DNA of 64,000 nucleotides, from contig NZ_JMLE01000016.1 of assembly GCF_000685965.1 (NCBI RefSeq), positions 1 to 64,000 of the forward strand, written 5' to 3'. The stretch comes from Arthrobacter sp. UNC362MFTsu5.1. GTDB lineage: Bacteria > Actinomycetota > Actinomycetes > Actinomycetales > Micrococcaceae. Both the position numbers and the translations under genes were made by a program. The notes below the pieces were generated by a model. The model had not been told where the DNA came from, did not search any database, and worked only from the letters and a program-made list of their open reading frames with translations. Shown one piece after another: positions 16,958 through 21,946 of this stretch. How positions within the stretch are numbered: position 1 is the first letter of the stretch; every line of letters begins with the position of its first letter.

Positions 16958-17881
16958 ATGGATTTGAAACGGCTCCGGATTCTCCGTGAACTCTCGGACC
17001 GGGGAACCGTGGGCGCCACCGCCGAGGCCATGGAGGTGACGCCGTCGGCCGTTTCCCAGCAACTCAAGACCCTCCAGGACGAGCTGGGCGTTGTCCTGGT
17101 GGAGAAGTCCGGCAGGGGAGTGCGCCTGACCGAGGCAGGGCGCGCGATGGCGGCGGCAGCGGCGGATGTGTCCACTGCCATGGCCCGCGCCGAAGCCACC
17201 ATCGACACGTACCGGCAGGGCTGGCAGACGCACGTTAAGGCAGCCTTCTTTCCGAGTGCGGCGGAAATGTTCCTCCCAGGTCTCCTGCACCGCGTCAAGG
17301 CGGTGGAAGGACTCCGGTTCGAGGCCTCCTTCGAGGACCCCGGCGTCGCGGGCTTCGCTGCCCTGGCCGCCGACTACGACATCGTCCTGGCCCACAGCGT
17401 TGATGGTCCCGATGTCTTCGCCCGGCAGGGGCTCGTGGTGGTTCCCCTGCTGAACGAGCCGCTGGACGTCGCCGTGCCGGCCGGCCACGTCCTGGCGGCG
17501 AAGTCCTCGCTGACCGCCGGCGACGTAGTGGGTTTTCCATGGATGGGCGTCCCGGAGGGTTTCCCCTTCGACACGGTGCTGCGCCAGATCGAGGTCCAGG
17601 CAGGGTCTCCGGCGGTACGCGCGCAGTTGTTTCCCGATCTTCGCGTCCTGGAGGCACTCGTGAGTGCAGGTCACGGGCTGAGCCTGCTGCCCCGGTACAC
17701 CGCCTTGCGGAACCAGGAGCGCGGCTTCGTCTTGCGCCCGCTGCTCGGGGTGACTGCCCGCCGCAGCATCGTGGCGCTCGCCCGCCCTGATGTGGCGGCA
17801 CGGACCACAATCGCGCAGGTCCTGTCCATGCTGGAGGCCGAAGCTGCATCAATCGATGCCGCCGGCCTCCGTGATGCCTGA
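16958..17881 (+). CDS. LysR family transcriptional regulator
   Basis: 307 residues. N-terminal winged helix-turn-helix at 1-60 (MDLKRLRILRELSDRGTVGA, then VTPSAVSQQLKTLQDELG), followed by a linker helix and a periplasmic-binding-like effector domain (about 90-300). It is divergent from the 187-residue protein gene and upstream of ilvD on the same strand, 142 bases away. Its target and inducer cannot be told from sequence; control of the divergent gene or of itself is the usual arrangement. Confidence 0.9.
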   Translation: MDLKRLRILRELSDRGTVGATAEAMEVTPSAVSQQLKTLQDELGVVLVEKSGRGVRLTEAGRAMAAAAADVSTAMARAEATIDTYRQGWQTHVKAAFFPSAAEMFLPGLLHRVKAVEGLRFEASFEDPGVAGFAALAADYDIVLAHSVDGPDVFARQGLVVVPLLNEPLDVAVPAGHVLAAKSSLTAGDVVGFPWMGVPEGFPFDTVLRQIEVQAGSPAVRAQLFPDLRVLEALVSAGHGLSLLPRYTALRNQERGFVLRPLLGVTARRSIVALARPDVAARTTIAQVLSMLEAEAASIDAAGLRDA

Positions 17882-18023: not shown

Positions 18024-19745
18024 ATGAGTGAGGACACCCAAGCAGCAATCGAGAACAAGATTGACATCAAGCCCCGCAGCCGGGTCGTCACCGACGGGAT
18101 CCACGCCGCCCCCGCGCGCGGTATGTTCCGCGCCGTGGGCATGGGCGACGACGACTTCGCGAAGCCGCAGATTGGCGTGGCAAGTTCGTGGAACGAGATC
18201 ACTCCCTGCAACCTTTCCCTGAACCGGCTGGCCCAGGGCGCCAAAGAGGGCGTCCACGCAGGCGGCGGTTTCCCCATGCAGTTCGGCACCATCTCCGTCT
18301 CGGACGGCATCTCCATGGGCCACGAGGGCATGCACTTCTCCCTGGTCTCGCGTGAGGTCATCGCCGACTCCGTCGAAACCGTGATGCAGGCCGAGCGCAT
18401 CGACGGCTCGGTGCTCCTGGCCGGCTGCGACAAGTCCCTCCCGGGCATGCTGATGGCAGCTGCCCGCCTGGACCTCGCCAGCGTGTTCCTGTACGCCGGC
18501 TCCATCATGCCGGGCTGGGTCAAGCTGGAGGACGGTTCCGAGAAGGAAGTCACCCTGATTGACGCCTTCGAAGCCGTGGGTGCCTGCGCCGCCGGCAAGA
18601 TGAGCCTCGGAGACCTGGAACGCATCGAAAAGGCCATCTGCCCGGGTGAAGGCGCCTGCGGCGGCATGTACACGGCCAACACCATGGCCTGCATCGGCGA
18701 AGCCCTGGGCATGTCCCTCCCGGGCTCCGCTGCCCCGCCCTCGGCAGACCGCCGTCGTGATGAGTTCGCCCGCAAGTCCGGCGAAGCGGTGGTCAACCTG
18801 CTCCGCCTTGGCATCACTGCCCGCGACATCATGACCAAGAAGGCCTTCGAGAACGCCATTGCCGTGACCATGGCATTCGGTGGCTCCACCAACGCCGTCC
18901 TGCACCTGCTCGCCATTGCCCGTGAAGCCGAAGTCGAACTGACGCTCGACGACTTCAACCGCATCGGCGACAAGATCCCGCACCTCGGCGACCTCAAGCC
19001 CTTCGGCCGCTACGTGATGACCGACGTGGACAAGATCGGCGGCGTGCCGGTCATCATGAAGGCACTGCTCGACGCCGGACTGCTGCACGGCGACTGCCTC
19101 ACCGTTACCGGCAAGACCCTTGCCGAGAACCTCGAGTCCATCAACCCGCCGGACCTCGACGGCAAGATCCTTCGTGCGCTGGACAACCCGATCCACAAGA
19201 CCGGCGGCATCACCATCCTGCACGGTTCCATGGCGCCGGAAGGCGCCGTCGTCAAGAGCGCCGGTTTCGACGCCGACGTCTTTGAGGGCACCGCCCGCGT
19301 CTTCGAGCGCGAACAGGGCGCCCTGGATGCCCTGGACAACGGAAACATCAAAGCCGGCGACGTCGTCGTCATCCGCTACGAAGGTCCGAAGGGCGGTCCG
19401 GGCATGCGCGAGATGCTCGCGATCACCGGCGCCATCAAGGGCGCGGGCCTCGGCAAGGACGTCCTGCTCCTGACGGACGGCCGCTTCTCCGGCGGGACCA
19501 CCGGCCTGTGCATCGGCCACGTTGCCCCGGAAGCAGCCGACGGCGGCCCCATCGCCTTCGTCCAGGACGGCGACAGGATCCGTGTCGACATCGCCGCGCG
19601 AACCTTCGACCTCCTGGTCGACGAGGCCGAGCTGGAATCCCGCAAGACCGGCTGGGAGCCGCTTCCTGCCAAGTTCACCAAGGGCGTGCTCGCCAAGTAC
19701 GCCAAGCTGGTGCACAGCGCCTCCACCGGCGCATACTGCGGGTAG
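18024..19745 (+). CDS. ilvD: Dihydroxy-acid dehydratase
   Basis: 573 residues, normal for the family. Converts dihydroxy acids to 2-oxo acids in valine, isoleucine and leucine synthesis. Conserved cluster-binding cysteines are Cys62 (ITPCN), Cys135 (GCDKS) and Cys212 (GACGG), with [14 protein letters not shown] and [19 protein letters not shown] further on; the pattern fits the [2Fe-2S] group. Leaderless-type start. Next downstream is the ilvBNC leader, 94 bases after its stop. Control by the IclR-type regulator is inferred from the dyad at 17913. Confidence 0.97.
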
Positions 19746-19762: not shown

Positions 19763-19780
19763 GTGGACAACGGCGTCCAC
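19763..19780. promoter_or_regulatory. Inverted repeat between ilvD and the ilvB leader
   Basis: GTGGAC-N6-GTCCAC. Its right arm adjoins CATAGTGAGATGC, which resembles one arm of the leuC dyad, so this may be a degenerate operator or part of an ilvD terminator. No T run follows. Confidence 0.3.
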
Positions 19781-19839
19781 ATAGTGAGATGCGTACCGTC
19801 GTCGTTGACACGCTTCTCATCAGAGGGAAAACTGAACGC

Positions 19840-19911
19840 ATGATCGCATTCGTTACTAGCTTCGCTGCTGCAGAGGCAGTCGTCGTCCTTACCAAGCGCG
19901 TGGCTCAATAG
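19840..19911 (+). CDS. ilvBNC leader peptide
   Basis: A 23-codon open frame, MIAFVTSFAAAEAVVVLTKR then VAQ and stop, too short for routine calling. Three consecutive Val codons (19879-19887) followed by Leu, with Ile and other Val and Ala codons, fit a peptide that senses charged branched-chain tRNAs, as in the ilvBNC leader of Corynebacterium glutamicum. A GAGGG site lies 12 bases upstream. The stop is 28 bases before a strong terminator that precedes ilvB. Confidence 0.75.
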   Translation: MIAFVTSFAAAEAVVVLTKRVAQ

Positions 19912-19938
19912 CCCGACTGGTAACGAACCGTCACGCGC

Positions 19939-19976
19939 AAACCCCTCGAAGAGCCTCACGGCTGAGGGGTTTTTTT
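19939..19976 (+). terminator. ilvBNC transcription attenuator
   Basis: Stem AAACCCCTC (19939-19947) with GAGGGGTTT (19964-19972), an inner AGCC/GGCT stem, and seven T's. A competing pairing is visible: GGCTC at 19902-19906, at the end of the leader frame, can pair with GAGCC at 19951-19955 and would break the inner terminator stem. A further hairpin pairs 19896-19902 with 19932-19938. The arrangement fits ribosome-stalling attenuation. Confidence 0.75.
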
Positions 19977-20044
19977 ATTTGTTCCACATATTGAACCCGT
20001 CATGAGATTTACCCGCTAATAAAGATCCACAAAGGAAGAGTCCG

Positions 20045-21946
20045 ATGAGCAAAGGATCGCCGATCAGCCCCTCGCTGATGGCTACAAAGTCCGCTGGAGC
20101 CCCCAAAGCTCCGGAACGCGCCGACCGCACGGCCGATGCCGGCGTCGAGCACGCTGCTGCTGTCTCTCCTGTACTCGGACCGAACAACGTCGTACCCCCG
20201 ACGGTGATGACCGGTTCACAAGCTATTGTCCGCTCGCTCGAAGAACTCGGCGTGGACGATATTTTCGGTTTGCCCGGTGGCGCGATCCTGCCCACCTATG
20301 ACCCCTTGATGGCCTCCCGCATGAATCACGTGCTGGTCCGTCACGAACAGGGAGCCGGCCACGCCGCGCAAGGCTACGCCATGGTTACCGGGCGGGTGGG
20401 CGTCTGCATTGCCACCTCGGGTCCCGGCGCCACCAACCTCGTTACCGCCATCATGGATGCGCACATGGATTCCGTGCCGCTGGTGGCCATCACCGGCCAG
20501 GTATCCAGCGGTGTCATCGGCACGGACGCCTTCCAGGAAGCTGACATCGTGGGCATCACCATGCCCATCACCAAGCACTCGTTCCTGGTGACCGACCCCA
20601 ATGACATCCCGCATGTCATGGCTGAGGCATTCCACCTCGCCTCCACGGGCCGTCCCGGTCCGGTGCTGGTGGACGTCGCCAAGGACGCCCAGCAGGGCCA
20701 GATGACGTTCTCCTGGCCGCCGAAGATCGACCTGCCCGGCTACCGCCCGGTGGTCCGCGGCCACAACAAGCAGGTTCGCGAAGCAGCGAAGCTGATTGCT
20801 GCGGCCAGCAAGCCCGTCCTCTACGTCGGCGGCGGCGTGGTCAAGGCGCATGCTTCGGCGGAACTGCGGGAGCTCGCCGAAATCACCGGCGCACCGGTGG
20901 TGACCACCCTGATGGCCCGCGGCGTGTTCCCGGACTCACACCCGCAGCACGTCGGCATGCCGGGCATGCACGGCACGGTGTCCGCCGTTACCGCGCTGCA
21001 GCAGTCCGATCTGCTCATCACCCTGGGCGCCCGTTTCGATGACCGGGTGACCGGCGTCCTGAAAACCTTCGCGCCGAACGCCAAGGTGATCCACGCGGAC
21101 ATCGATCCGGCCGAGATCTCCAAGAACCGCACCGCGGACGTTCCGATCGTGGGCTCCGTCAAGGAGATCATCCCGGAACTGACCGAGGCCGTGAAGACGC
21201 AGTTCGCTGCTTCCGGCACGCCGGACCTGGAGAACTGGTGGGCGTTCCTGAACAACCTGAAGGATACGTATCCGCTGGGGTGGACCGAGCCCGAAGACGG
21301 CCTCACCGCACCGCAGCGCGTCATTGAGCGCATCGGTGCCCTCACCGGCCCCGAAGGGATTTACGTTGCGGGCGTCGGCCAGCACCAGATGTGGGCTGCG
21401 CAGTTCATCAAGTACGAACGCCCCCACGCCTGGCTGAACTCCGGCGGAGCCGGCACCATGGGATACGCCGTTCCCGCGGCCATGGGCGCCAAAGTGGGCG
21501 CACCGGACCGTGTGGTCTGGGCCATCGACGGCGACGGCTGCTTCCAGATGACCAACCAGGAACTGGCCACCTGTGCCATCAACAAGATCCCCATCAAGGT
21601 TGCGGTCATCAACAACTCCTCGCTGGGCATGGTTCGCCAGTGGCAGACCCTCTTCTACGAGGGCCGCTACTCGAACACCGACCTGAACACCGGCCACGAG
21701 ACAGTCCGCATCCCGGACTTCGTGAAACTGGGCGAGGCCTACGGCTGCGCGTCCTTCCGGTGCGAACGCGCTGAGGACATCGACGCCACCATCCAGAAGG
21801 CCCTTGAGATCAATGACCGCCCCGTGGTCATCGACTTCGTAGTGAGCCCCGACTCCATGGTGTGGCCGATGGTGCCCGCCGGAGTGAGCAACGACCAGAT
21901 CCAGGTCGCCCGCAACATGACCCCGGAATGGGAAGAGGAGGACTGA
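20045..21946 (+). CDS. ilvB: Acetolactate synthase large subunit
   Basis: 633 residues. Residues 1-55 are a variable Ala/Pro extension; the enzyme proper starts at [16 protein letters not shown]. ThDP-dependent motifs: the catalytic Glu in [13 protein letters not shown] and the cofactor block [33 protein letters not shown]. Catalyses the first common step of valine and isoleucine synthesis, with IlvN as regulatory subunit. GGAAGAG ribosome site. First gene after the attenuator; ilvN follows after two bases. Confidence 0.97.

Follow-up and report, generated by a model that had tools for sequence, protein, structure and literature searches.

Does the ribosome that translates a short frame ahead of ilvB decide whether transcription continues into the genes for branched-chain amino acid (BCAA) biosynthesis? 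The question is raised by the window, by which we mean the whole 64,000-nucleotide stretch of DNA analyzed, in which a 23-codon frame with the codon run GTC-GTC-GTC-CTT and a strong intrinsic terminator precede ilvB, as an initial annotation made from the sequence had described. Such a layout should sense shortage of valine, leucine, and isoleucine just before the genes for their biosynthesis. We consider it probable (at roughly 0.7) that the leader is a ribosome-mediated transcription attenuator of ilvB-ilvN-ilvC, of a kind known in other Actinobacteria, and the evidence that supports this reading comes from sequence and comparison, namely from the leader, the promoter spacing, two helices (termed A and B), the terminator, and the ribosome geometry. 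The initial annotation had spoken of a complete attenuation layout; as a BCAA leader-peptide attenuator this gains comparative support, while the detailed pairing mechanism it proposed is not supported, and helix A and a leaderless promoter had been missed.

The leader, its promoter, and the neighboring genes

Reading rightwards, the gene order is ilvD (ending at 19745), the leader (19840–19911), the terminator (19939–19976), ilvB, ilvN, ilvC, and serA, and the spacing between the stop codon of the frame and the terminator amounts to 27–28 bases, in agreement with the initial annotation. The positions of the individual elements are collected in Table 1. To judge from the named best matches of its IlvB, among them Arthrobacter sp. 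Leaf137 at 95%, the window comes from a member of the Micrococcaceae. Leucine is encoded by CTT in 78% of 64 Leu codons from 55 distinct leaders of the window's similarity cluster. Elsewhere it is a rare Leu codon: of 165 Leu codons counted in four window genes, 6% are CTT. The RNA from 19840 to 19978 folds at −49.5 kcal/mol (z −2.3), and its 3′ part, 19901–19978, at −28 kcal/mol (z −2.9). An Rfam scan of the window returned four tRNAs as its only matches at gathering score, leaving the leader unmatched. We also observed a gene for a LysR-type regulator (16958–17881) just upstream of ilvD on the same strand, for which the best NCBIfam match was GltC, below the cut-off.

Table 1. Elements of the ilvB leader region, with positions in the window.
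Element	Position	Strand	Details and basis
−35 hexamer TTGACA	19805–19810	+	110 of 120 distinct family promoters have TTGAC beginning between −37 and −35 relative to the ATG
−10 hexamer AAAACT	19828–19833	+	17-nt spacer; 6 nt before the ATG; NANNNT conserved
Leader frame MIAFVTSFAAAEAVVVLTKRVAQ with stop	19840–19911	+	ATG at 19840, TAG at 19909–19911, 23 codons; sequence and comparison
Helix A, 5′ arm (A1)	19849–19859	+	Codons 4–7 (FVT and part of S); predicted fold, ORF:loop coevolution
Putative regulatory codons Val-Val-Val-Leu (GTC GTC GTC CTT)	19879–19890	+	Read from sequence; Leu codon bias
Helix B, 5′ arm (B1) GCGCGTGGC	19896–19904	+	Codons for K-R-V-A; coevolution, covariation; present past the stop codon in other genera
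Helix A, 3′ arm (A2)	19917–19927	+	2 nt before the 3′ arm of helix B; predicted fold, coevolution
Helix B, 3′ arm (B2) GTCACGCGC	19930–19938	+	Abuts the terminator directly; coevolution, covariation
Terminator, 5′ arm	19939–19955	+	Folding, family comparison
Terminator, 3′ arm	19960–19972	+	Folding, family comparison
U-tract TTTTTTT	19970–19976	+	Sequence; hairpin spans 19939–19972
ilvB (then ilvN, ilvC)	20045–21946	+	Acetolactate synthase large subunit, proposed regulated gene; protein family match

The promoter boxes stand at nearly constant distances from the leader ATG. Among the 120 distinct family promoters, NANNNT starts 12 nt (103 promoters) or 13 nt (15 promoters) before the ATG in 118, while most other offsets give counts of 0–11; both boxes are found together, under a looser joint rule, in 116; and Shine-Dalgarno-like 4–5-mers lie at −16 to −5 in 9. 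In Streptomyces lividans the distance from −10 hexamer to start site averages 6.3 nt (PMC8079986), and because the −10 box of the window lies 6 nt before the ATG, transcription is predicted to start at 19840 ± 1, on or next to the ATG itself. The leader is thus probably leaderless. A generic promoter scan of the window found no promoter, which we attribute to its strict −10 rule.

Farther upstream, positions 19765–19789 hold the inverted repeat GGAC-N6-GTCC followed by ACATAGTGAGA. The pattern GGAC-N4–9-GTCC is present in 94 of 127 family upstream regions, against a mean of 2.8 in 10 shuffles, and in most cases it lies 77 to 74 nt upstream of the leader ATG. We take this repeat to resemble IclR-type sites, and it is perhaps a putative operator of a regulator acting at the promoter. 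As a mark of a BCAA regulon the repeat was rejected, since the genome has a single exact site of this pattern, the one in front of ilvB; the neighbors of two inexact sites encode a protein with a winged-helix regulator domain and a HAD-type hydrolase. A second inverted repeat, GTGAGA/TCTCAC, flanks the −35 box in 27 of the 64 leaders of the window's cluster and is degenerate in the window (19784–19824).

Conservation of the frame and of two crossing helices

We compared the DNA upstream of ilvB from 182 family loci, made up of 58 of the 61 genomes of the genus, 6 more loci of the same genus, other family members, and loci L032–L035, with a few species possibly represented twice; of the 80 loci in the set that also supplied L032–L035, 57 from named Actinobacteria (L036–L092) served for comparison, and 30 of these had a frame and a U-run. 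A single script picked the elements at every locus, favoring candidates with BCAA runs, [KR]R, ATG, and a U-run, and its counts are therefore counts of picks; as a control for picker bias, the same script was applied to dinucleotide shuffles (three rounds of the same 182) and to the reverse strands. A leader frame with a U-run was picked at 153 of the 182 loci, at 151 together with a terminator of −13 kcal or better, and at 142 with, in addition, a helix B of −12 kcal or better. The same three counts were 2/0/0, 1/0/0, and 4/0/0 of 182 in the shuffles and 2/2/0 of 182 on the reverse strands. With at most 4/0/0 in any shuffle round, the layout is more than chance. The 29 loci without leader and U-run comprise 13 with no candidate frame (L159, L211, L226, L229, L231–L234, L238–L241, and L250) and 16 with a frame that lacks TTTTT; by eye, several of the latter carry the same leader with a broken U-run and others do not. 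Counts given below out of 127 refer to a set of distinct leaders from which L035 and 8 of 136 with a weaker helix B are left out, and in which relatives are not independent, 64 of the 127 falling into one cluster, that of the window.

The initial annotation had made its reading depend on conservation of the leader frame in relatives, and this conservation was found. A leader with an RVA tail is present in 64 of 64 same-genus loci, and the distance from the ATG to GCGCGTG is 2 mod 3 in each of the 103 leaders (of 127) that contain this heptamer, over 13 different distances. By comparison, the distances from B1 to B2 in these 103 leaders use all three phases (49, 32, and 22). A phase that stays fixed over 13 distances from ATG to B1, while that from B1 to B2 varies, indicates that the leader is translated in frame. 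The start codon is ATG in 126 of 127 leaders.

In 15 of the 127 leaders the frame ends before B1, and 8 of these 15 still keep GCGCGTG in the same phase, for which reason we rejected the idea that KRVA is kept for the sake of the peptide. These eight leaders separate a constraint on the RNA from one on the peptide. They come from L143, L144, L147, L152, L154, L155, L168, and L172, where the stop preceding GCGCGTG is often a TAG that replaces a Lys, Arg, or Gln codon of the relatives, with the helix arm retained.

When the leader is folded with no ribosome on it, helix A is the longest helix predicted. The stem proposed in the initial annotation, between GCGCGTG (19896–19902) and CACGCGC (19932–19938), lies where it had been located, its extent being corrected to the nine pairs of helix B, 19896–19904 with 19930–19938. 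Along the RNA the arms follow one another as A1, B1, A2, and B2, so that the two helices cross and must either be mutually exclusive or form a pseudoknot.

Three lines of comparison support these helices. Complementarity was scored against shuffles in 128 distinct leaders, L035 among them, that remained after removal of the 8 of 136 whose helix B did not reach −12 kcal, giving mean z values of −3.2 for the terminator arms, −4.0 for B1:B2, and −1.8 for ORF:loop, which represents helix A. In this count and in the covariation count the arms of helix B were chosen by best pairing, that is, fitted. Covariation over 38 distinct pairs of helix B arms yielded 290 paired cells of 342, compared to a mean of 172.7 and a maximum of 217 in shuffles, with 104 double changes. 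Coevolution was evaluated by comparing each leader's own partner with swapped partners in 20 cluster representatives (5000 permutations), with L035 excluded because its terminator was mispicked. In these representatives the helix B regions, here unfitted, coevolve (z −6.3, 0/5000), as do the terminator arms (z −8.0, 0/5000) and ORF:loop, for helix A (z −3.6, 3/5000), including the last 14 nt of the loop taken separately (z −3.0, 6/5000).

Ribosome position and proposed control of the terminator

To place the ribosome on these leaders, we assumed a footprint reaching 14 nt behind and 15 nt ahead of the start of the P-site codon. A ribosome whose A site holds the stop codon covers the whole of B1 in 123 of 127 leaders, whereas one holding the first BCAA codon there leaves B1 entirely free in 125, and one holding the second does so in 100. 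The final BCAA codon starts 8 nt ahead of B1 in 86 of the 127. In ribosome-masked folds, which consider only the RNA ahead of the ribosome, helix B exceeds a probability of 0.5 in 122 of 127 leaders with the ribosome at codon 1, in 115 at codon 2, and in none at the stop; with no ribosome it does so in 49. In the window the probability of helix B is 0.84 at the first and second Val codons, about 0.5 at the third, and 0.00 at the Leu and stop codons. Because a ribosome at the stop codon hides B1 and a stalled one exposes it, helix B is, in these modeled states, the stall-dependent helix. This reverses the earlier assignment, in which the 19896/19932 stem was the one formed when the ribosome does not stall. 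Points against the attenuator include the 29 family loci without leader and U-run and the finding that, in most leaders, a ribosome waiting at the final BCAA codon would hide at least half of B1, in line with the value of 0.00 at the Leu codon of the window.

These results fit the following mechanism. Transcription would start on or next to the leader ATG, and the ribosome would load at the 5′ end of the RNA. Where charged Val- and Leu-tRNA are ample, the ribosome would advance to the stop codon and cover B1, so that helix B could not form and the intrinsic terminator would end transcription. Under valine shortage it would instead wait at the first Val codons, leaving B1 free to pair with B2 immediately upstream of the terminator, and transcription would read through; stalling is in this way expected to raise readthrough into ilvB. 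Without a ribosome, helix A would be made first and compete with helix B, which would make termination the default.

How helix B might act on the terminator is a separate matter. Counting both gaps and overlaps, we found the helix and the terminator to abut exactly in 87 of 127 leaders, with a gap in 12 and some overlap in 28, many of the overlaps arising through short detached triplets; in the window both gap and overlap are 0. When helix B is allowed to invade the terminator, 16 of the 127 leaders gain at least 2 kcal, fewer than the 25% that do so once terminator starts are shuffled; among 30 named Actinobacteria outside the family, 13 do. In this family, helix B would therefore need another way to stop the terminator. 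Equilibrium folds of the window form the terminator in every ribosome state, stalled or not, with a probability of 0.74–0.75, and the 5′ arm of the terminator is paired upstream at more than 0.4 in 1 of 127 leaders when the ribosome is stalled, in 11 with the ribosome at the stop, and in 23 with no ribosome. Because the terminator is equally probable in all states and its 5′ arm hardly pairs upstream under stalling, competition by base pairing, as in textbook attenuators, is not seen, a further point against the attenuator.

Two precedents led us to propose a steric action instead. Terminator hairpins are considered to enter the exit channel through which RNA leaves the polymerase, and termination is prevented by a phage protein that occupies it (PMC6624301); in a manganese riboswitch, a helix beside the polymerase enforces readthrough (PMC11087558). 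By analogy, the duplex lying flush with the 5′ arm of the terminator and beside the stalled ribosome might keep the terminator from closing in the exit channel for lack of space, a tentative idea that is our preferred reading of this step although we give it, within the attenuator explanation, somewhat less than even odds. The more general proposal of a Micrococcaceae antiterminator defined by zero-nucleotide abutment, a helix B whose foot meets the leading edge of the stalled ribosome, steric block, and no alternative pairing seems to us unlikely.

Helix B could also be a mere pause hairpin that synchronizes polymerase and ribosome, the distance between the two deciding the outcome with no RNA antiterminator involved. 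The helix does end just upstream of the terminator, so that during a pause about 11 nt further on only the 5′ arm would exist; a pausing role has been proposed by Ryabchenko et al. for the upstream hairpin of C. glutamicum (PMC11857589), and no antiterminator pairing that coevolves with the terminator arms was found. By itself, however, pausing leaves unexplained both the zero gap between helix B and terminator in 87 leaders and the constant position of B1 relative to the last BCAA codon in 86, and we regard it as improbable.

In the arrangement of the initial annotation, stalling would instead allow GGCUC to pair with GAGCC inside the terminator, and the 19896/19932 stem would hold GGCUC when the ribosome does not stall. 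The complementarity is real in the window, with GGCTC at 19902–19906 and GAGCC at 19951–19955 as annotated. When the ribosome holds the Leu codon in its A site and the transcript extends no farther than 19957, before the 3′ arm of the terminator is made, the pairing reaches a predicted 0.31, but at full length it falls to 0.00. The 4-mers GGCT and AGCC occur in 38 of the 64 leaders of the window's cluster but in 1 of 63 outside it, and both 5-mers in 22 of 64 and 0 of 63. Coevolution was absent between the segment following B1 and either terminator arm (5′ arm, z −0.33, 1814/5000; 3′ arm, z −0.36, 1745/5000) and between the ORF and the arms (z 0.25 and 1.68), and a search for a textbook antiterminator by shuffles and partner swaps in 20–21 representatives found none for ORF, B1, or loop with either arm. 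In addition, losing five upper pairs would leave the lower stem of the terminator intact, and the ribosome geometry of the 19896/19932 stem is the opposite of that assumed. Pairing of GGCTC with GAGCC may contribute locally in the window, but on this comparative evidence it cannot be a conserved switch, and the arrangement as a whole is very unlikely.

Control exerted mainly at the promoter through the operator-like repeat at 19765–19789, with the leader translated and the terminator working but codon stalling without a role, would agree with the conservation of that repeat and with leader codon mutations in S. coelicolor that proved to be without effect (Craster 1999, cited in PMC1262725), a result that also counts against the attenuator. 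It is very unlikely, given that frame, codon run, and helix B geometry are conserved together and that related leaders respond in C. glutamicum (cited in PMC11857589) and M. tuberculosis (PMC13236596).

Relation to known attenuators

The ribosome-mediated attenuator that we favor has its counterparts among known systems. The leader contains the features of actinobacterial ilvB attenuators, namely a frame with BCAA codons, an intrinsic terminator, and, ahead of the terminator, a helix that depends in the modeled folds on the position of the ribosome. In the trp-type attenuator of E. coli, a codon-sensing ribosome chooses between helices ahead of the terminator. The mechanism proposed here shares the codon-sensing ribosome and the choice of helix before the terminator, but no helix was found in these leaders that takes up the 5′ arm of the terminator, and stalling is predicted to expose the first arm rather than hide it.

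Leader peptides and terminators before ilvB were described in 2005 for Corynebacterium, Mycobacterium, and Streptomyces (PMC1262725), and later work has added an ilvB-II motif in Corynebacterium (Narunsky 2023, PMC10272879) and a mutational analysis of the C. glutamicum ilvBNC attenuator (Ryabchenko 2025, PMC11857589). Among the matches listed in literature searches on ilvB and on attenuation of BCAA genes in Arthrobacter and the Micrococcaceae, no paper dealt with the leader of this family, subscription papers lying outside their range. The present comparison would place a probably leaderless ilvB attenuator that reads valine codons in the greater part of a family of soil bacteria, and its roughly 180 loci go beyond work on single species by pointing to a ribosome-dependent helix (B), a competitor (A), and a proposed pairing that is not conserved.

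In C. glutamicum, Val-to-Ala mutants of the leader lose the valine response, and expression drops when the start codon is lost (Morbach 2000, cited in PMC11857589). The ilvBNC leader of that species resembles the present one in its BCAA codons, in a start site at the start codon (predicted here), in its intrinsic terminator, and in the order of its hairpins, with H1, which blocks the antiterminator, corresponding to helix A, the stall-dependent H2 to helix B, and H3 to the terminator. The initial annotation had called the two peptides different; letter for letter this is so, but the C. glutamicum peptide, MTIIRLVVVTARRLP (quoted in PMC11857589), and the present one share a VVV-x-x-(K/R)R kind of core, and the unlikeness lies outside the Val run and the (K/R)R tail. 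The leaders also differ at the junction, where H2 and H3 of C. glutamicum share the boundary trinucleotide GCC (PMC11857589), whereas the overlap in the window is 0. We therefore do not assign the window's leader to the C. glutamicum "fast" three-hairpin subtype, whose features include overlap through a shared trinucleotide.

The M. tuberculosis ilvB1NC leader likewise has a BCAA run (LVVI), an antiterminator that is freed by stalling and prevented by a ribosome at the stop codon, and an intrinsic terminator, and in ilvB1 reporters the change of LVVI to AAAA abolishes induction (PMC13236596). The ilvL leader of S. lividans, MRTRILVLGKRVG, is leaderless, as predicted for the leader studied here, and has a KRV tail and hairpins with a U-tract before ilvBHC (PMC8079986); it differs in its shorter BCAA run (ILVL), and codon control is disputed in S. 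coelicolor (PMC1262725). Attenuators in actinobacterial ilvB leaders are thus known, and what may be new in the Micrococcaceae is a stall-dependent helix that abuts the terminator with no overlap, an arrangement that poses the question of whether touching alone can let a helix stop a terminator.
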